A stretch of 42,646 nucleotides of DNA from a virus. The notes beneath the pieces were generated by a model. That model did not search any database and was not told where the DNA came from. It saw only the letters and a list, made by a program, of their open reading frames with translations. The stretch is from positions 1-42,646 of IMG/VR virus record IMGVR_UViG_3300017725_000013; one strand, given 5' to 3'. Shown here in pieces: positions 4,701 through 39,270 of this stretch. Within the stretch, counting starts at the first letter, position 1. Each line of letters opens with the position of its first letter. A program made the translations under genes and the position numbers.

Positions 4701-7700
4701 TATAAATTTACCATCAGTTCCTTTTTTAAATCCACTTTTAGTTAACAATCCATAAGCATAAGTGTTTAATTCTTCAGCTCTTTTTAATGTGTTGTCTCCG
4801 TATTTTTTCTTTAATTCAATTTGTTTATCAGTAATTTTTTGTTTAAAAAGACCCCAAGCAGGTATAAAAAAAGCTTCTCTTTCTGTAATTTCTTTTTCAG
4901 TTAATTTTCTTCCTGATTTAAACGATCCTTTTCCTGTATAATTATCAATAAAAACTTCATTTCCTCCACCTTCTTTTTCTGATCCTTTTTTAAAATTTAC
5001 AAATTTTAATTTACCATTAACTGTTTCAAGCCTCATGTTACTTTTGCTTCCAATACCTAAAGTTTTTATAATGGCGTTAACTTGAGTTTTGTCTAAACCT
5101 TCAAGTTTACCCATGTTTTTTAAAACTTTTTTCATATAATTTTGAAAAAGTTTTTGTTTTCTAGGGCTTTTGTTTAATTCGCTATAAGATACATTTTCTG
5201 GATTTAATCCTAAACTTCTTGCTATGTTAGCAGTGCTTTTTGCAGCCTCCTTTTGCATTACTTCAAACTCTTCTTTAGTAAAATCAGAATTTTCTAATAT
5301 TAAAACTTCTGTTTCAGCAAACAATTTATCAGCGGCCTTTTTTTCAGCAAGTTTCATAAAACTTTCAGGAACAAGCTTAATCATGTAAGATTTTACTTCT
5401 GCAGTAGCTTCACTATTGTTTATAATAGTTACCATATCGTTTATTGAAAAACCACCAGTTTTTACTTTTTCTTTTAATTCTGTTTCTACACCCTCAAATA
5501 TATTTTTAGAATCAACAAACCTAGATTTACCTTTACCCATATTTTCTATGACCTGTAAATCAAGACCCATTTTTCTGCCTACATCTTGAGCTTGCTTTAT
5601 ATTTAAAGATTTATTTATTAAATCAATTATTCCTTTCATGGTTTGAGCAACAGCAGCTTGTTCTTTTGTACTTCTTGGCCCTAATTGATTACTTCTTTTA
5701 CCATCGCTAATACCTATAGCATTGTATATATCTTTTAATTCAATATTTCTTTTTAATCTATATTGAGGATTTCCATTAATTACTTTTCCAGTTGATTCGT
5801 ATAATAAGTTTCTAACATTATTAAACATACCCGTAGGCATTCCACCAATAAGTTTTGTTTTAAAAACTGTTTTTCCAGCTTCTTTACTTGCAATCTTATC
5901 AATAACCGGATTACCTTTTGGACCCATTAATAAAACCGTTTCAATAGGCGTGTTAGCTTCTTGAATAATTTTTAAACTCCATTTTAAGTTTGCAGGATTT
6001 GCTAAAAAAGCTAAAGCTTTTCTTTGATCTTTTTTATCAAAATTATCTTTAGAGTTTCTTATTTTATTAGCAGGTATACCAATCATTTCACTTAAAAGCT
6101 CTCCGCTAAAACCTTGTTTTCTTGCTAAATCGTTTACATTTTTAAATGTGCCTTTAAAATCAGGATTTAAAACAACTCCTGCAAAATCTAATTTACCTTT
6201 ATTTATTACGTCTTTATATTTAGGTAAATAATCGCCTTTATTATCTTTTAAACGAATGGTGGGTGGACCGTCTAATACATTTATTTTTTTATTAGTTTTA
6301 GCAATTCCAGATCTTCCAGCTGAACCAGGACTTAAATCTAAGTTTTCAAAACTACTAGTTTTAAAAGTTTCACTATAACCTTGTTGAACCTGTCTTTCTT
6401 CTGAAATTGTTAAGTTGTCAATACTTGATGTGAAGCTGGTTTGCTTAAACTGCTCAGTACCCAGTTTGTTTATTCTTAAGTTATATAAATTACTTGTTTG
6501 TTCGGCTATTGGCAAATTTTTTTCCCCAACTTTTGAAACATCATAGTCTAAAAATCTTTGATAATACTCTTGTTCAAGATCTTTCTTAAACTGCTCATAA
6601 GTTACACCCTCACGATTACCCTCTAAAGTTCTTGTATACAATCTTTTCATTGAAGCCGCAAAAACAGGTTGTGCAGCTTTTAATATTAAAGCTTTATCTT
6701 TTTCGTTTTCTAAAGTCTTTAAAAATTCTTTTGTAGGTTTACCGTCATTCCAACCTTTTCTATCTTTAAACAGTTCGTTAGTTACAGTGTAGCTTTCTTT
6801 TTTAACCGCAGTTTCTTCAGCTTCAATTAATTTAGAATCTCTTTGTGTAGTTTTTTCATCTACTACAATACCTATAGTTCCATTACCTCTTTCTACAAAC
6901 TGTATGTTTCTGTCTTTAAAAGCATTCATCTCTGGCGCTAACATGTCAACAAATTTCTGAGCTTTACCAGTTTTCATTTCCCTTAATGCTTCAAAGAAAT
7001 AACTTTGTATTTCCGAAGCTTTTGTGGGAGGATTACCTTTATAACCTACAAGATCAAAGTTTGTTTTAATATCTTTTATTACTTCAGTAATAAAATTAGG
7101 GGCTTCAGCTGTATAATATAACTCTGGTCTAGAAAATATTTGAACTACATAAGCTAACTGCTCTTCTTTTGACATATTTTCAGACATAGCAACACCATCT
7201 TTTTCATACGCTTTTTCCATTATTACTCTAAACCTTCTTAAGCCTCCTTTAGGAAGTCCAGCTGCTTCAATACTTTCAGGACTCATTTTAGGTAGTCTGT
7301 TCATAACATCACCTACAATTCTAGGTTGAGAATTAGGAAATTTTTTATTAGTAACACTTCTAACGTAGTGAGTCATTTCATGATTAACTAAATCTTGAAT
7401 ACTACCAACAACCCCTTCTTCTATCATTTTATTAGCCAATCTTTTATTAACTAATACTTCATATTTTCCATTTCCAAGATCATTAAATCTAGCAGGAACT
7501 TCCACACCTTTATCAGCATCCCATAATTTTTCTCTTGCAACTTTTGCATCTGAAACAACAGTTAAAACGCCTGATTTAATATCACCACCACCTTTTTTTA
7601 GAATATTAGTGATTGGATCCATTGACTTTGTTTGTAAAGTTTTTTGTAAGTTTGGATCATCTATACTAATTAAAGCACCACCATTTCTAAGTTCAACAAC

Positions 7701-10556
7701 TTTTTGTAAATTGTTTATTGATTGATCATAAGATTTTACTAATTTTTTTTCTTTATTAGTTAGCTTTCTATCGACCATTTCTAGTGTTTTACCTTCAAGG
7801 CCAGTTAGTTTAGCTTCTTTTGTTAAAGCAATTCTTTTAGTATATAAATCTCTTATTGTTTTATTTATTTGATTTGTTCCAATAAAATCAGTTCCTTTCA
7901 TGTGAAAAACACCAGTACTAGCAAATAATAAACCATTTAAAGCAACTCTTTTAGATACTTCGTCCATGTCTCCATAAAGCTCATTAAATGCAGCCATGAA
8001 ATTTTCGTTTCCTTTTAAATCTTCTATTTGTTTTTCTAAAATATGACTAGCTTCGGAAGCCGCTACACCCATTACAGCTGTTTTTATTCCGTTTTGAAAA
8101 AATGGATCCATAACTGATTGTCCTCCAGCAGAGTTTGATATTCTAACTCCTCTGGCTAACACACCACTAACACCAAATATAGCTCCAGTTCCAGGTGGAA
8201 AACCTAACAACCTCATTTTTGCTTCTTCAACACCACCTGTAACCATTGTAGCGCTAAGTTTTTCCCAAGTTGATCCAGATTTTAATGCTTGTTGTATCCA
8301 TTTAGCAGCGCCTAAATAATTCATAGCACCTCCTGTTACAGCTGTTAAAGCCATAATTTCACCAAACAATGGTACAAATCCTCCAGCCATTTCAGCAAAA
8401 GTTGGACCAAAAGTAATTTTTAATGCTTCTAATTGCTCAGGAGTAAACTGTGCGGCAGGCATTTTACCATCTATAATGTCTTGCGCATATACCTCGTTGT
8501 ATTCTAAATTAAGGGCCTCAACATTTCTTTTTAATTGTATCGTACCTCCTGCGTCATAATCAAGGCCAACAGTATCAGCTAAAGCTTCTATAGCAGCACC
8601 ACCAAAAATAGCAAGATTACTATCTGATTTTATGTTTTGAATATCTTTGTTTAAATAAATAGTTTCCCAAACAGCATCAAGCTCTCCATCAACAGCTTCT
8701 AAATTATCTTTAAATATTTTTATTTTGTTTTTATCGTCGTCGCTAATTATAGTTGTAGTCAAGGTATTACCCAAAAGTCTTTGATAGTCAAAAACAGAAA
8801 TATCATAATAACCAGTTTTTTCATCTGCAGTAAAACCATGATAACTCATCATAGATTTTTTACTATAAGGAACTGCTCCAAATTTAAATCTAATATTTTC
8901 ATTTCTACCATCAGTCAGTATATCTAGTTTTTCAGTATACTTTGTGTCTGCAAATAATTCTGCGCCCTCTTGAGTTGTTAAACTTCTATCTATAACTCTT
9001 AATCCAGTTATGTAATCTGAAAGAGAAGACTGCATTGAATCATAACTTTGATTATATATGTTTCCTTTTGTTTTTCTTTCCTCAGCTCTAGTAAAAGCAT
9101 CTTTACCACTAACGAAATTTAAATCTGATAATTCTTTGTATTTTTGATCGTACGCTTCTTTATAACCTATAGTTTTAAGAATTCCACCTGGGGTTTGAAT
9201 TTGTCTTGATTCTGAGTTAGCGTAAGCTTTTGCGGCAAGCCTAGCATTAGTATTTATTTGTTTACCAAAACTTTTAATCTTATCTTGTTCTGTTTCTATT
9301 TGAATTTGAATGCTATCATACCATTTTTTTTCATCAAAATTGTCTCCATTAGAAACTTTTTCAGGTGGACCTTGAAGCAATTGACTTTTTAAGTCACTAA
9401 TTTTTTTATTTGTAGTTAATATAGATCTATTAATTTCGTATAGTTTTGTTTCAAATTCATTTGTATCTTTTAATCTAGCAGCATGTGATTCGTTTTTAAA
9501 ATCAGTTCTTGATTCAAGAGAATATTCTTTATTATTTTTATAAATATTATTTCTAGTTTCTTCTATCGCTGCAGTTCTTTTAAAAGTATTTATTAAATTA
9601 CTTTTTGTTCCATATAGTTTTGCAAAATCTCTTTTAGAAAAATTTAATTCAGTGTCTAATTTAACATCTTCATAAACAGCATCAATAAGTTTATTCATTT
9701 CATCATCGCTGTAATTATAGTTGGCAATTCTATCATCTTTAAGGTTTAAACCTACAATGCTAGGATCTTTAAAAGCATTAATAAAGTTTTCTGCAGCATT
9801 ATCAGCTATAGCATTCATCTGATCAGCATCGTATTTAACAGCACTAGAACTGTCCGATAGCTCTATTTGAGTAGAAACAGAATCCATATTTGGATTAAAA
9901 TCTGGTTGTTCATCTGTAAAATAATCTTCTGGAGCAAGACCCGTGTTCTTGTAAACATTACCTACAAGACTAGATGTTTTACTATTATTTTTTAAAAACT
10001 CAGCTATTTGATCATAAGCTTCAGGGTTTTTAATTAACTGCATTGAGCCTTGAGTATTTCCTCGTACATTTTTAAACAAAGGTATTTCTGTTGTTTCTCC
10101 AGTTTCAATATTAGTTAATGAAATTACATCAAGACCTGGTTTAAATGGTATATCTACTTTTACTCCAACACCTTTGGTTTTAAATATAGAGTTTAAATCT
10201 CTTTTTATATTGTCTTCATTAGCAACATCTTCACCTTCAGGAAGTATGCTTTCAAATTCTTTTTTACTTAAAACAACATTAGGATCTGATGAAACCGAAG
10301 AAGTATCTACCAAGTCTAATTCCGTATTCACTATTGGCGCTACAACATCTGTCGACACCACATCCGCGCTTGTTGCGGTGTCCGTTTGAAAATCTGGAGA
10401 AACTTCTTCATCAACAATTATTTCTTCGTTTTCTTTTTCAGCTTTTATTTCAGGATTTTTTATTAAATATTCTTCTAAAGTAGTTCCTAAGCTATTAACT
10501 TTTTCGTCAATTTCTTCTTGAGAATAAGTAAAATCTTTGTACTTGTATATAGTCAT
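1719..10556 (-). CDS. Giant (2945-residue) internal virion/ejection-type polyvalent protein with zincin motif
   Basis: One uninterrupted frame of 2945 codons lies at the end of the virion gene series, in the position held by the largest ejection protein (gp16-type) of T7-like phages and by giant cargo proteins in crAss-like phages. Residues 1059-1063 are HEMTH in the context NHEMTHYVRS, a metallopeptidase HExxH motif. A glutamate in SKEEQLAYVV about 75 residues later could be the third zinc ligand. Residues about 715-900 contain a cluster of hydrophobic, Gly/Ala-rich segments that could insert into a membrane. The N-terminal third is acidic and helical. The C-terminal ~500 residues (ending SDSFDFSNDFNSG and a short Asn-rich tail) resemble, from memory, the conserved end of large uncultured marine phage proteins. 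No RNA polymerase DxDxD motif was found. Packaging in the capsid and injection is inference from position and size. Confidence 0.85.
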   Translation of the reverse strand: MTIYKYKDFTYSQEEIDEKVNSLGTTLEEYLIKNPEIKAEKENEEIIVDEEVSPDFQTDTATSADVVSTDVVAPIVNTELDLVDTSSVSSDPNVVLSKKEFESILPEGEDVANEDNIKRDLNSIFKTKGVGVKVDIPFKPGLDVISLTNIETGETTEIPLFKNVRGNTQGSMQLIKNPEAYDQIAEFLKNNSKTSSLVGNVYKNTGLAPEDYFTDEQPDFNPNMDSVSTQIELSDSSSAVKYDADQMNAIADNAAENFINAFKDPSIVGLNLKDDRIANYNYSDDEMNKLIDAVYEDVKLDTELNFSKRDFAKLYGTKSNLINTFKRTAAIEETRNNIYKNNKEYSLESRTDFKNESHAARLKDTNEFETKLYEINRSILTTNKKISDLKSQLLQGPPEKVSNGDNFDEKKWYDSIQIQIETEQDKIKSFGKQINTNARLAAKAYANSESRQIQTPGGILKTIGYKEAYDQKYKELSDLNFVSGKDAFTRAEERKTKGNIYNQSYDSMQSSLSDYITGLRVIDRSLTTQEGAELFADTKYTEKLDILTDGRNENIRFKFGAVPYSKKSMMSYHGFTADEKTGYYDISVFDYQRLLGNTLTTTIISDDDKNKIKIFKDNLEAVDGELDAVWETIYLNKDIQNIKSDSNLAIFGGAAIEALADTVGLDYDAGGTIQLKRNVEALNLEYNEVYAQDIIDGKMPAAQFTPEQLEALKITFGPTFAEMAGGFVPLFGEIMALTAVTGGAMNYLGAAKWIQQALKSGSTWEKLSATMVTGGVEEAKMRLLGFPPGTGAIFGVSGVLARGVRISNSAGGQSVMDPFFQNGIKTAVMGVAASEASHILEKQIEDLKGNENFMAAFNELYGDMDEVSKRVALNGLLFASTGVFHMKGTDFIGTNQINKTIRDLYTKRIALTKEAKLTGLEGKTLEMVDRKLTNKEKKLVKSYDQSINNLQKVVELRNGGALISIDDPNLQKTLQTKSMDPITNILKKGGGDIKSGVLTVVSDAKVAREKLWDADKGVEVPARFNDLGNGKYEVLVNKRLANKMIEEGVVGSIQDLVNHEMTHYVRSVTNKKFPNSQPRIVGDVMNRLPKMSPESIEAAGLPKGGLRRFRVIMEKAYEKDGVAMSENMSKEEQLAYVVQIFSRPELYYTAEAPNFITEVIKDIKTNFDLVGYKGNPPTKASEIQSYFFEALREMKTGKAQKFVDMLAPEMNAFKDRNIQFVERGNGTIGIVVDEKTTQRDSKLIEAEETAVKKESYTVTNELFKDRKGWNDGKPTKEFLKTLENEKDKALILKAAQPVFAASMKRLYTRTLEGNREGVTYEQFKKDLEQEYYQRFLDYDVSKVGEKNLPIAEQTSNLYNLRINKLGTEQFKQTSFTSSIDNLTISEERQVQQGYSETFKTSSFENLDLSPGSAGRSGIAKTNKKINVLDGPPTIRLKDNKGDYLPKYKDVINKGKLDFAGVVLNPDFKGTFKNVNDLARKQGFSGELLSEMIGIPANKIRNSKDNFDKKDQRKALAFLANPANLKWSLKIIQEANTPIETVLLMGPKGNPVIDKIASKEAGKTVFKTKLIGGMPTGMFNNVRNLLYESTGKVINGNPQYRLKRNIELKDIYNAIGISDGKRSNQLGPRSTKEQAAVAQTMKGIIDLINKSLNIKQAQDVGRKMGLDLQVIENMGKGKSRFVDSKNIFEGVETELKEKVKTGGFSINDMVTIINNSEATAEVKSYMIKLVPESFMKLAEKKAADKLFAETEVLILENSDFTKEEFEVMQKEAAKSTANIARSLGLNPENVSYSELNKSPRKQKLFQNYMKKVLKNMGKLEGLDKTQVNAIIKTLGIGSKSNMRLETVNGKLKFVNFKKGSEKEGGGNEVFIDNYTGKGSFKSGRKLTEKEITEREAFFIPAWGLFKQKITDKQIELKKKYGDNTLKRAEELNTYAYGLLTKSGFKKGTDGKFILKNGEKVPFTYAETAAANQAVAKDFIMSMYDVYAEAKPGKEKTMAKEMMLLSFSQQTNIATGLIKSLYKVESIAVEGSKQIEYTDKKGNLRKTPANHIEHALQLLNFTDFMFQPAGFKSKADFEKKLDYFMKNVAKQHVIPKELSNFNDSGDMGGTTSFSPIIGEKATAGTNFTSNVFSTLSQMKNQVMLTEPGMTNITMAEQIASTIPAKQKATVLTELQTLMKRDPNLVTSETILFENSLKKETIKEKIKVDDNNFELIKLADEGTGVAKGENLPYNTSTAEVLNRLGIKDIEISQNIKKSFDSKDLSSELNAIIRDGSSEIRNYSAAQAKLLGEKVRDDIWIPSSAEDFKGLIYRTLSKGKLGEQQFAWYKENLIDPLNKAENLASIDTRNVEMSWLGLKKQLKNVPKRLRKNSDVKGFTNENAIRIYNWARQGMEVPGLSKQNLKDVINYVDANPEFVAFSDKLIEMTKGDGYPPPTEMWLTGTMGTDLRSGLGTVKRAKYLEATGFTNNINQIYSKQNLNNLEAKYGTKYRVALENMITRIKSGRNRKPSKNEWENRMADWLNGANAVTMSLNVKSGVMQLTSSINYLNASDNNPIAAGMVIGNLPVYSAAVRRIWNSDYLQDRMGGDKIDVSQNEVAEAAQSNGIKGLTNLILQKGYIVTRAADAAAIASGGATFLVNRTRTYKKQGMSEKEAGDKAFEDFRLISEQTQQSAATSMLSSEQASISGRAILAFNNTPAQYTRITKRAVEDLMAGRGNKGENIRKIIYYSVAQNLLFNGMSNAMFGDIWETDEQAANPNVQKRKQDRNIRTVNGMLDTMLRGSGIKGAAVSTLKNMLIKVYNENKKSRPEYANVALEALDFVPSLDTKIRKLRAAGNAISWNYKDIKKLGLMDSKNPAYLASSNVISAATNFPADRLLMKFNNMRAVMTEDMEGWQKISRALGWSEYAVGPYKDFKKSRKSSSKSPFSDSFDFSNDFNSGNNNFDTNFN

Positions 10557-24121: not shown

Positions 24122-25642
24122 TTATTGTTGGAATAATACGAAATTATTCGCGGCTTGAGTAACCAAACATCTTTCAGTCAACCAATTAACTTGCATCGCA
24201 TCTAACGCAGTAGTGTAAGCACCACCTGCAGATCCTGTGATCCAGTTTTTGTATCGTCTGTCTTCAGTTTGTGAAGCTCTATATCTAACGTGAAGGAACG
24301 GTCTTCTTATGTTAGTACCAAGTTGTTGGTCATACACAGTTGAAGTTCCAGCAGGTATTAATACACCTTCGATATTGTTAACCGCAACAGCACCTCTTGT
24401 AGAAGCGTCGTTTAAGTATTTCCAGCTAGTTTTGTAGAAGTCATAAGAACCTCTTCTAAAACCAGAGAAACCTAGGTTAAGTGCCATATCCTCAGAGTTT
24501 TCAAATAAACCATAAGCAGTACCACCAGAAGAACCAGCAGAAATTTGCCCTAGCATATCGTCAAATTCTAAATCAAGATCTCTATTTAAGAAAAGCATGT
24601 TTTCTTCGATAGCGCCTTGAGTATCTAAGTTCTTAAGAACTTGATCAAAGTCAGAAATACCAGTAACTCCAGAAAAACCAGATAGTATGTTACCTCTTGA
24701 TTGAATAGCAGCAAATAAACCTTCTGATCCATGCGCATTAACTGCAGCACTATATCCCGGAACATTTCCAGCAGCTGCACCAGCAGCAAAACTGTTAGCA
24801 CCAGCACCACTAGCTAATTCACTTTCAACCATTGCCATTTCTAAGTAGTCATCAAATCTTAGTCTTGTTTCAGACTCAGACTTTAAATACCATAAGTATC
24901 CTGATGTACCATCTTCTGTAGCAACTTCTACCCAACCGATTTGAGACATATCAGAACCATTTATTTGAAACGAATCTTTTATGATAATTGGTTGATTAGA
25001 AAATTGAGTAAACTGTGGTTGAATAGATTTGTAAGATGCAGCATTAGGAGCAGCACCTTGAGCCGTAGCTTGAGATGTACCTTTTGCAAAAGCAGAACCA
25101 TATACAAATATTTTCAACGAAGTTGATCTGTTAGCAGCTCCAGCTGCAACACCTGCATCAGCTAAAGTAAGCCAGCTGTTTCCTACAAAAGTAAAAGCAG
25201 TAATAGATGCAAGAGGACCAGCGATATTTTGGCTAGTACCTACAACACCTTTTATTGTAACACCAGTAGCTGGATTCATTACAACAATAGTGTCGTTTGC
25301 AAAAATAGCATTTTGAACACCATTAGCTAATGGAAAAGTAAATACATTTCCGTTTGCAGCAGCAGTTCCAACGAGAGTTACACCAGTGTAAGACACGTGT
25401 AATCTGTTTTGTTCAGACCAAATTACTTGATCAGATGTCATTGGCATTTCAGCGCCAACCATACGTAAGAAACCATTTAAAGTTCTATTTCCGTATCTCT
25501 CTACCTCAGCTTCATAAACCTCAGGTAAGTATTGTTGTGCAAAGTCATTTGCACCAGCATTAAACGCTAGGTAATTGTTTTGTAGCGCTAATTGAGTTTG
25601 AGAAGGTATAATGCTTCCAAACACAGGAGAAATTTGTCCCAT
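24122..25642 (-). CDS. Major capsid protein
   Basis: This 506-residue protein lies directly after the scaffold gene and before the strong terminator. It begins MGQISPVFGSIIPSQTQLAL without a signal peptide. It has the HK97-type layout expected of a large capsid subunit: an N-terminal arm (1-50), an inserted beta domain (about 70-220), a long helix LWYLKSESETRLRFDDYLEMAM, and a conserved C-terminal part with GFRRGSYDFYKTSWKYLND, FLHVRYRASQTEDRRYKNW and LTERCLVTQAANNFVLFQQ. From memory these C-terminal phrases recur in capsid proteins of uncultured marine phages. It is likely the most abundant protein of the virion. The leader is A/T-rich with AAAAC repeats. Confidence 0.9.
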   Translation of the reverse strand: MGQISPVFGSIIPSQTQLALQNNYLAFNAGANDFAQQYLPEVYEAEVERYGNRTLNGFLRMVGAEMPMTSDQVIWSEQNRLHVSYTGVTLVGTAAANGNVFTFPLANGVQNAIFANDTIVVMNPATGVTIKGVVGTSQNIAGPLASITAFTFVGNSWLTLADAGVAAGAANRSTSLKIFVYGSAFAKGTSQATAQGAAPNAASYKSIQPQFTQFSNQPIIIKDSFQINGSDMSQIGWVEVATEDGTSGYLWYLKSESETRLRFDDYLEMAMVESELASGAGANSFAAGAAAGNVPGYSAAVNAHGSEGLFAAIQSRGNILSGFSGVTGISDFDQVLKNLDTQGAIEENMLFLNRDLDLEFDDMLGQISAGSSGGTAYGLFENSEDMALNLGFSGFRRGSYDFYKTSWKYLNDASTRGAVAVNNIEGVLIPAGTSTVYDQQLGTNIRRPFLHVRYRASQTEDRRYKNWITGSAGGAYTTALDAMQVNWLTERCLVTQAANNFVLFQQ

Positions 25643-37029: not shown

Positions 37030-37473
37030 TTATCGGTTTTTATCTTTGTTTACGTTATTTATGGATGTAATCATTACTTTGTCTATATAACTTTTACCTT
37101 TCATTATTTTATTTCTAGCGGTTGATGTTGGTATATCTTCTTTACCAAGCATGATACGGTACATGCGACTTATTAGTTGTTTACACTTAAAGGAAACTTT
37201 ATAAATATTATACTTTTGGGTTGTTCGATTATGTTGTCTCCATACGATTATCCAACCTTGTTTAAGTAATCTGTTCCAGCGTCTGTTGTCCCAACTATAA
37301 GAATATGTACCGATTTTAAAATCTTCTCTTGTAAAAAGATCCATGCAATCGAAATAAATTAACAGTTCAAGATCTGCATCATTTAATTCATTATTTTTAC
37401 AGGCCCATTTTCTAATGATCCTATAATGTTTTAAAAGATTTAAATCTCTAACATCACTTGCTTCTAGTCTCAT
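37030..37473 (-). CDS. Winged-helix-like DNA-binding protein (possible regulator)
   Basis: The 147-residue protein has a helix-rich first half (LNLLKHYRIIRKWACKNNEL, LELLIYFDCMDLFTREDF), a turn with WDNRRWNRLLKQGWIIVWRQ, and then HNRTTQKYNIYKVSFKCKQL, a wing-like strand pair, as in MarR-type winged-helix domains. The C-terminal 40 residues are basic and unstructured. It overlaps the groES stop by 4 bases, so it is co-translated with the chaperonin pair. It may control late gene expression or the chaperonin operon; this is inference from fold resemblance only. Confidence 0.6.
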   Translation of the reverse strand: MRLEASDVRDLNLLKHYRIIRKWACKNNELNDADLELLIYFDCMDLFTREDFKIGTYSYSWDNRRWNRLLKQGWIIVWRQHNRTTQKYNIYKVSFKCKQLISRMYRIMLGKEDIPTSTARNKIMKGKSYIDKVMITSINNVNKDKNR

Positions 37474-37730
37474 AACACAACAACTACGTGTGCCATATTA
37501 ACTATTTGATATATTTCTTTTTTTATCTCTATTTGATGAGTATTGTTTTTATCAAAATAAATAACATCACCTTTTTTGATCCCTATAACATTACTACCAG
37601 CTGATAATATTGTACCTTCTGCGTATCTTATATCTTCTCGTTGTTTTTCTGCTAAAAACAAACCGCCTTTGGTTTCAGAGATGCCTTGTTTTGTCATGTC
37701 TACTATTAAATTATTCCCTATTGCTTTCAT
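37470..37730 (-). CDS. groS: Co-chaperonin GroES (Cpn10)
   Basis: The 86-residue protein shows the Cpn10 layout: MKAIGNNLIVDMTKQ as first strand, a mobile loop ISETKGGLFLAEKQ (residues 17-30) with GGLFL (22-26) in place of the usual GGIVL tripeptide that docks on GroEL, AEGTILSAGSN as the turn and KKGDVIYFDKNN (52-63) as the GD-IV strand. It ends VNMAHVVVVL, shorter than the usual SESDILA end. The gene follows groEL and starts 20 bases inside it, the reverse of the common bacterial groES-groEL order. Confidence 0.88.
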   Translation of the reverse strand: MKAIGNNLIVDMTKQGISETKGGLFLAEKQREDIRYAEGTILSAGSNVIGIKKGDVIYFDKNNTHQIEIKKEIYQIVNMAHVVVVL

Positions 37731-39270
37731 TAACTCTTAAATTATTAATTACACAATCGGTTGATAAAATAGTTCTAGCCACAGAGCTAGCATTTTTTAA
37801 TGCACTTTTTGTGACGAGTAAAGGATCAATAATCCCTGACTCAATCATATTTACCATATTTCCTGTAACAACGTTTAGACCTTTACCTTCTTGATTAAAA
37901 AACTTTTCATTTTTAATACCAGCATTAGCAAGTATTGTATTGAAAGGGGATTTAATAGCTCTTAAAAGTATTTTTTCTAAAGAGTTTGAAGTATCTATTT
38001 CTTGTGATGCATTTAATAAAGCAATACCACCACCAGGTACAATACCTTCTTTAATAGCCGCTTTAGTAGCACAGATAGCATCTTCAACTCTATCACGTTT
38101 TTCTTTTAATTCAACCTCGGAATTAGCACCAACCTTTACAATAGCAACTTTACCTGATAATCTAGCTAATCTTTTTTCATTATTAATTATAATACCTGGG
38201 TGTTTAGCTGTTTTAAGTTTAGCTTTTATATCTTCAATTAAATCTTTGACTTCTTTATTTACCTCATGAACTTGCAATATGGTTTCATGCTCACTAGTTA
38301 TTGTTTTCTTACATTCACCAAGTTGCTCAGGTTGTATTAAATCAATATCATCTCCAAGATCTTCATTAATAACTGTAGCACCTGTAAGTAACGCTAAATC
38401 TTCTAGTGTTTCTTTTTTATTTACACCATAAATAGGTGCATCGATAACATTTACTTTAATATTACCTTTTATTTTGTTCATTGCTAAAGCTGACATAACT
38501 TGTTGATCAATATCAGCAATAATAAGTAATGATCTTTTATTCTTTATAGCATACTCTAAAACACTTTGTATTTTTCTTACATTTTCAACCTCTGACTCTA
38601 CGATTAAAACTAAAGGTTTATCTAGTTCAGCTGTTTTAGTATTTTGATTAGTTACAAAATGTATATTTTTTAATCCTCTATCATATTGTACACCATCAAT
38701 AGTTTCAAAATTAGTTTCTGGTAAATCAGAAACCTCTAGCATTACTACACCTGTTTGATCAACTGATCTAAAAGCATCTGCAATAATTTTACCAAGCATG
38801 GGATCATTATTTGTAGATATTGTAGCAACTTGATCTATCATATCACCATCTACTGGTGTTACTATAGAATCTAAGTAATCAACTACTTTGTTTGTAGCTG
38901 TAAGTATACTTTCTTTTACTTCTCTTGAGTTTTCTTTTGTTATTACTTTATATGCTTCTTCTAATATAGCATGAGCCAATACGGTTGCTGTAGTGGTTCC
39001 ATCACCTGCTTCACTAACAGTTTTCTTTGCGGCTTGTTTAAGTAATGTTGCTCCCATGTTTTCAACAGGATCAAGAAGTGTAATAGCTTCAGCTACAGTT
39101 ACACCATCTTTTGTAATAATAGGTTGACCAGTACTATCTTCTAACATAACACATTTGCCACTAGCTCCTAGTGTGGAGCTAACGGCTTGTGTAAGTTTTG
39201 TAATACCAGCAAACACATTGTTTTTAGCATCTAAACCAAAGTTCAGATTCTTTACAATTGCATTTGACAT
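37711..39270 (-). CDS. groL: Chaperonin GroEL (Cpn60)
   Basis: The 519-residue protein aligns across the whole of GroEL. It has ITKDGVTVAEAI (residues 52-63), the ATP-binding GDGTTTATVLA from residue 89 (D90 for phosphate and Mg contact), the ISTNNDPMLGKIIADAF segment, apical QYDRGLKN, and RVEDAICATKAAIKEGIVPGG in the equatorial domain with the conserved hydrolytic aspartate in VED. Differences are LGASGKCV where most GroEL have LGPKGRNV, and a C-terminus NNLRVNESNRE with no GGM tail, making it about 30 residues shorter than E. coli GroEL. It folds proteins in the cytoplasm with GroES. The neighbours are groES and, farther left, a tandem GroES-like gene. Confidence 0.97.
   Translation of the reverse strand: MSNAIVKNLNFGLDAKNNVFAGITKLTQAVSSTLGASGKCVMLEDSTGQPIITKDGVTVAEAITLLDPVENMGATLLKQAAKKTVSEAGDGTTTATVLAHAILEEAYKVITKENSREVKESILTATNKVVDYLDSIVTPVDGDMIDQVATISTNNDPMLGKIIADAFRSVDQTGVVMLEVSDLPETNFETIDGVQYDRGLKNIHFVTNQNTKTAELDKPLVLIVESEVENVRKIQSVLEYAIKNKRSLLIIADIDQQVMSALAMNKIKGNIKVNVIDAPIYGVNKKETLEDLALLTGATVINEDLGDDIDLIQPEQLGECKKTITSEHETILQVHEVNKEVKDLIEDIKAKLKTAKHPGIIINNEKRLARLSGKVAIVKVGANSEVELKEKRDRVEDAICATKAAIKEGIVPGGGIALLNASQEIDTSNSLEKILLRAIKSPFNTILANAGIKNEKFFNQEGKGLNVVTGNMVNMIESGIIDPLLVTKSALKNASSVARTILSTDCVINNLRVNESNRE

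Follow-up and report, generated by a model that had tools for sequence, protein, structure and literature searches.

Is the chaperonin gene pair carried by some phages a recent copy of a host operon, or a folding machine of the virus's own, and, if the latter, how much of the cellular design has been given up? The need for two rings and the roles of the floor tail of the chamber and the roof of the lid are old questions that have been approached mostly with engineered mutants. The phages considered here appear to offer a natural experiment, in which roof, tail and ring contacts have changed together and the ATP site has stayed fixed. The pair studied here lies in a 42.6 kb virus record from IMG/VR, the whole of which (42,646 nucleotides) we call the window; it also carries genes for portal, terminase, endolysin and virion structural proteins, almost entirely on the minus strand.

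The two genes (Table 1) encode a group I chaperonin (Cpn60) and a partner Cpn10. The GroEL matches Pfam Cpn60_TCP1 over residues 26-509 (E=7e-60; 203.5 bits vs. a gathering score of 34.3) and the PHROG profile chaperonin groEL (E=5e-134), has the catalytic, Mg and ATP residues, and is adjoined by a protein that matches Pfam Cpn10 (PF00166; E=1.5e-9, 38.2 bits vs. a cut-off of 21.1). NCBIfam equivalog models are not reached: TIGR02348 (GroEL) gives 446.4 bits, below its 582.1-bit cut-off (relatives score 442-467 bits), and the best GroES equivalog gives 26.9 bits, below curated cut-offs of 109-142 bits. AF2 models of GroEL (pLDDT 83) and GroES (pLDDT 87) match GroEL/Hsp60 structures and Cpn10 structures, respectively, the latter together with T4 gp31 (1g31, E=1.7e-3). 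Values of dN/dS of 0.13-0.19 for groEL and 0.04-0.23 for groES indicate purifying selection on both genes, and we therefore regard the pair as functional.

Table 1. Positions of the chaperonin genes, the sites discussed and associated genes in the window
Feature	Positions	Strand	Basis or remark
groEL (Cpn60), first gene of the pair	37711-39270	-	519 aa, ATG start; Pfam, PHROG, AF2 model
groES (Cpn10), second gene of the pair	37470-37730	-	86 aa, ATG start inside groEL; Pfam, AF2 model
Bases shared by the two genes (end of groEL, start of groES)	37711-37730	-	20 bases
147-aa protein, function unknown (phrog_17028), next gene of the operon	37030-37473	-	overlaps groES end by 4 bases
GroEL LGASGKCV, residues 34-41 (E. 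coli LGPKGRNV, 31-38)	39148-39171	-	P33A, K34S, R36K, N37C
GroEL GDGTTT, phosphate/Mg binding loop, unchanged	38989-39006	-	89/89 in family
GroEL Q235, replacing E. coli L234, lid- and substrate-binding helix H	38566-38568	-	Q in 89/89; sister family E in 81/81
GroEL N444, equivalent to inter-ring R452	37939-37941	-	alignment
GroEL residues 454-461, equivalent to inter-ring loop (E461, S463, V464)	37888-37911	-	more variable within the family than any other 8-mer of the protein
GroEL C-terminal residues 506-519, without GGM tail	37714-37755	-	alignment; low pLDDT
GroES GGLFL, residues 22-26, mobile-loop tripeptide region	37653-37667	-	GroES translation and alignment
GroES residues 47-49, site of the missing bacterial roof loop	37584-37592	-	segment of 10 residues vs. 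median 18
Virion structural protein, 506 aa, 54.2 kDa	24122-25642	-	phrog_13704 virion structural protein

As originally predicted, groEL precedes groES and overlaps it by the stated 20 bases, and this is indeed the reverse of the bacterial operon, since all 42 Bacteroidota and all 10 Pseudomonadota comparison loci are arranged groES-groEL. The arrangement is common among viruses. An IMG/VR scan found at least 540 stretches that encode relatives of the window GroEL, and the order groEL-groES is present in 80 of the 81 closest viral loci and in 10/10 loci from MAGs (90/91 in total, the one exception being cut by a contig end). Across this window family the groEL/groES overlap takes only a few values, the motif reads LGA[SG]G..V where readable, and a G/M-rich tail is found in 0/91; the conservation of order, overlap, tail and loop across loci indicates that the pair is not a product of chance. 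The same order occurs in 78/80 loci of a sister family, typified by the uncultured podovirus ctfjg026 (MW202828) and present on 442 IMG/VR stretches, in 13/14 loci of the Elemovirus family (MT497067), and in Maribacter phage Panino (PP540027), where a short ORF separates the two genes. Reversed order is thus not a novelty: it is present in cultured phages and was reported earlier for virioplankton GroELs, likewise viral group I chaperonins, whose phylogeny tracks subunit order according to the account of Marine et al. 2017 (ISME J, doi 10.1038/ismej.2017.102) given in PMC9611531. The Panino paper reports both GroEL and GroES homologs (PMC11590407); in the Panino record, PANI_CDS0109 (7519-7785, minus strand) is entered as a hypothetical protein and is actually the GroES homolog, 3' of groEL.

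The 147-aa gene adjoins groES on the same strand in 89/91 window-family loci. In the ctfjg026 and Elemovirus families its homolog also lies beside groES, on the opposite strand, so that the neighbor has been kept and its orientation flipped. We considered this gene as a third chaperonin component and rejected the idea; it is more likely a core gene of the lineage, because its homologs in Panino and Callevirus do not directly adjoin groEL. A search of Rfam gave no matches, promoter-like sites showed no excess over chance, and the single pair of terminator-like sites (37775-37790) falls within groEL. Only one long plus-strand gene was identified in the window: at the contig edge (1-777), a gene for the large subunit of ribonucleotide reductase, of which the end is present.

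Genes for packaging and virion structure place the virus. The window terminase shares 63.1% identity with its ctfjg026 counterpart, 44.8% with those of the Flavobacterium phages in Elemovirus and 37-39% with those of Cellulophaga phages, and the 506-aa virion structural protein matches proteins of ctfjg026, Elemovirus, the Cellulophaga phage set and Panino. On these terminase and structural protein matches, the virus, probably one of marine flavobacteria, belongs to a lineage of podovirus-like, short-tailed phages of Flavobacteriia, a placement that applies to the lineage and is separate from the contig's own host.

If the pair had been captured recently from a host and degraded at random, its GroEL should group with that of Bacteroidota. 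In trees of 73 and 65 proteins, the window family forms a single supported clade that stands apart from cellular GroEL, and a branch with SH-aLRT 97 has all three families with reversed order on one side. Constraining the window family to group with the GroEL of Bacteroidota lowers the log-likelihood by 65.6 units (AU p=0.00095) in a test tree that left out the long-branch phage GroELs of EL, MaF61, Mx1, phi14:2, cr108_1 and VAP7, among which joins may be false, and under the model applied this refutes host origin. How exactly the window, ctfjg026 and Elemovirus families join one another is not secure (inner fork support 43, with a long-branch warning). The best PDB sequence match of the GroEL is a reconstructed Bacteroidetes-group ancestor, which is in line with a Bacteroidota host range and would suit a recent capture; against this, identity to host GroELs is only 37-42%, the dN/dS range given above for groEL does not suggest degradation, and the same traits recur on hundreds of viral contigs. 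We consider recent capture very improbable. The part of the original prediction that called this an adapted, specialized chaperonin and not a recent host copy is therefore borne out by the phylogeny against Bacteroidota GroEL, in which the reversed-order clade is all viral, by the low host identity and by the 446-bit score against a 582-bit cut-off. The view that the pair is anciently viral, widespread and long apart from the bacterial version holds.

What has changed in the GroEL is not the catalytic center. Every one of 89 window-family GroELs keeps T30-L31-G32, K51-D52-G53, D87-T91, D398, G414-G415 and D495. A changed phosphate loop had been predicted from LGASGKCV, and the motif is certainly there, but the GDGTTT loop that binds phosphate is intact, and we reject that part of the claim: the changes of the window family (P33A, K34S/G, R36K, N37C) lie beside the loop and next to the nucleotide. 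We take the same stretch to lie also in the stem-loop that contacts the termini of the neighboring subunit. LGP[KAR]GRNV is found in 52/52 Bacteroidota and Pseudomonadota comparison loci, and parts of the change recur elsewhere among phages: Cellulophaga phi38:1 has LGASGRNV, Bacteroides phage DAC23 has LGPSGRCV and Panino has LGASGRTV. The absence of a GGM tail is confirmed, in that the protein ends in STDCVINNLRVNESNRE and its aligned end corresponds to E. coli residue 531, before (GGM)4M. G/M-rich tails occur in 49/52 bacterial comparison loci and in none of the reversed-order viral loci. Deletion of 7 or 17 C-terminal residues from E. coli GroEL has little biochemical effect (PMC11978752).

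The lid differs more than the original prediction implied, which had singled out GGLFL in place of GGIVL. The motif is present, but we rejected it as a special adaptation, since Bacteroidota GroES carry III, LYI and LFI at this tripeptide. The stronger signals, which the prediction missed, are the missing GroES roof, relaxed inter-ring contacts and L234Q. The stretch that makes up the roof loop is 10 residues long (range 10-12) in all 184 reversed-order viral GroES compared (91 window-family, 79 ctfjg026-family and 14 elemovirus-type), whereas a comparison set of 53 GroES, cellular or reference ones, has a median of 18, and the mobile loop of the window family, read off the alignment, is about 3 residues longer than that of E. 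coli. In the lid-binding groove of the window-family GroEL, the replacement of L234 by Q (E in the sister family) is accompanied by Y203 to H in 84/89 and V263 to A in 88/89, and Y199 is changed too. Residues L233/L236/V263 (L234/L237/V264 in the numbering used here) have been identified as the essential GroES contacts (PMC12696368). Because these groove positions are conserved within each family, the contact with lid and substrate is likely changed but constrained.

Loss of constraint is pronounced where two rings would meet. We ranked 280 positions that are conserved in cells by their variability in each viral family, and asked where six pre-chosen inter-ring sites (K105, A109, R452, E461, S463, V464) fall. 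In the window family V464 ranks 1, S463 4, E461 10, A109 12 and R452 15; in the ctfjg026 family R452 ranks 1, E461 2, S463 11, K105 12 and A109 15. Five of the six are thus in the top 15 in each family (hypergeometric p=1.3e-6 each), and the inter-ring sites also stand out when compared with polar positions in the equatorial domain only (p at or below 0.0001). Opposite charges at one place and changes in loop length occur in both of these separate families, with the alignment of residues 461-467 uncertain by about 1 residue; K105 stays K in 21/25 representatives. Hypervariable contact sites are not proof of single rings, as an interface that contacts itself can drift and remain an interface, and this one may have been rebuilt. 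The combination R452E/E461A/S463A/V464A is nevertheless the single-ring mutant SR1 (PMC12696368), and single-ring GroEL grips GroES too tightly and becomes functional once the lid contact is weakened (PMC5575113). Drifted ring contacts and an altered lid groove, as read from the alignments, fit this picture of a single ring with a weakened lid, without proving it.

We somewhat favor the reading that this is a dedicated Cpn60/Cpn10 pair of a Flavobacteriia podovirus-like lineage that forms a trimmed cage for virion proteins, with single or loosely paired rings. What we infer for oligomeric state, client, lid exchange and cavity size is as follows. Heptameric Cpn60 rings would capture unfolded virion proteins, of which the 506-aa structural protein is a candidate as both major capsid protein and client, and ATP binding would recruit the phage's own Cpn10. 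Folding would then proceed inside a cage trimmed at both ends, with neither the GGM floor tail nor the GroES roof loop, leaving more room or open poles, as may be the case for T4 gp31 with the 56 kDa gp23. With conservation gone from the inter-ring contacts, the rings would act singly or pair only loosely, and the lid might be released through a weakened contact with the chamber (L234Q; the changed length of the mobile loop) and not by ATP at an opposite ring. The reversed gene order and the overlap would couple synthesis of the lid to that of the chamber. The pair is probably single-ring or loosely paired; that the viral clade has a truly single-ring Cpn60 and a roof-less Cpn10, with both poles trimmed and a cycle that proceeds without a second ring, we put forward only tentatively. 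A tail-less single ring could leak substrate, and the best-known single-ring phage chaperonins, those of OBP and AR9, are without GroES; both points count against it.

An ordinary double-ring GroEL-GroES that diverged in viruses, with its interface kept by other residues and with tail and roof lost as neutral economy in a small genome, would account for the fully conserved Cpn60 fold and ATP site, for the mostly kept K105 and for the near harmlessness of those C-terminal deletions in E. coli. We regard it as less likely, given that in two separate families all but one of the six contact positions rank with the most variable cell-conserved sites, with opposite charges and loop-length changes, and that loss of the roof is universal and not sporadic. 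Mixed complexes, in which phage GroEL works with host GroES or phage GroES with host GroEL, redirecting host folding, have a precedent in T4 gp31, which acts on host GroEL (PMC6318259; PMC9598537), and the GroES tripeptide resembles those of Bacteroidota hosts. They are improbable here, because the pair is kept together in 90/91 loci and, at L234, Y203, Y199 and V263, the groove no longer has the residues that host GroES uses.

Known systems share parts of the favored dedicated, trimmed cage. Elemovirus, Panino and ctfjg026 have the same order, no GGM tail, a short roof-less GroES and a related virion structural protein, but their GroELs are only 37-40% identical to that of the window and the loop differs (Panino has LGASGRTV, the ctfjg026 family LGPxGNTV and Elemovirus MGYRGRTV). 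Human mitochondrial Hsp60 keeps a G/M-rich tail. Its single-ring ADP form (9shk) has the top TM-score among the listed fold matches (0.88, a score that reflects conformation), at about 36% aligned identity. This Cpn60 is single-ring and nonetheless works with a Cpn10 lid (PMC5575113). T4 gp31 is likewise a phage-encoded lid, without roof loops and with an extended mobile loop, features thought to let GroEL fold gp23 (PMC6318259), and the window GroES, too, has no roof loops; gp31, however, partners host GroEL, comes with no phage Cpn60 and is only about 11% identical where aligned. Phages EL, OBP and AR9 encode Cpn60s with single-ring forms (PMC9598537, PMC5934643), but these function without a co-chaperonin, and that of EL is 22% identical to GroEL.

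Order, tail and loop as first described are therefore largely known or explained. New here are the missing GroES roof, the variable ring contacts in two families and the change of L234. In the literature searched, where Marine et al. 2017 is represented by the paper that cites it, we found no report of roof, tail and constraint on the ring contacts being lost in concert. Such a loss predicts a cage of single or loosely paired rings that has a roof-less lid of its own and, if true, would give a non-mitochondrial example of a chaperonin that is naturally single-ring and has a co-chaperonin; the cultured relatives Elemovirus and Panino make the single-ring question testable.

Some of the records surveyed call for separate comment. 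The entry CAKLQH020000021.1 ('Acinetobacter phage MD-2021a') has pckG, bmrU and dgkA around its groSL stretch and looks like host chromosome, and because these surrounding genes are bacterial housekeeping genes we do not count its GroEL as a phage GroEL. One window-family groEL (G048:C200) is in two pieces with an in-frame TGA, either a broken gene or a sequencing error. The MAG Aliivibrio sp. Ust_30 has eight GroEL-like matches on separate contigs, none above the GroEL cut-off, and the bin appears rich in phage contigs; in the MAG Bacteroidetes IN_BCD_1, three viral-type GroELs (contigs C16, C37 and C23) occur beside the host gene in one bin.
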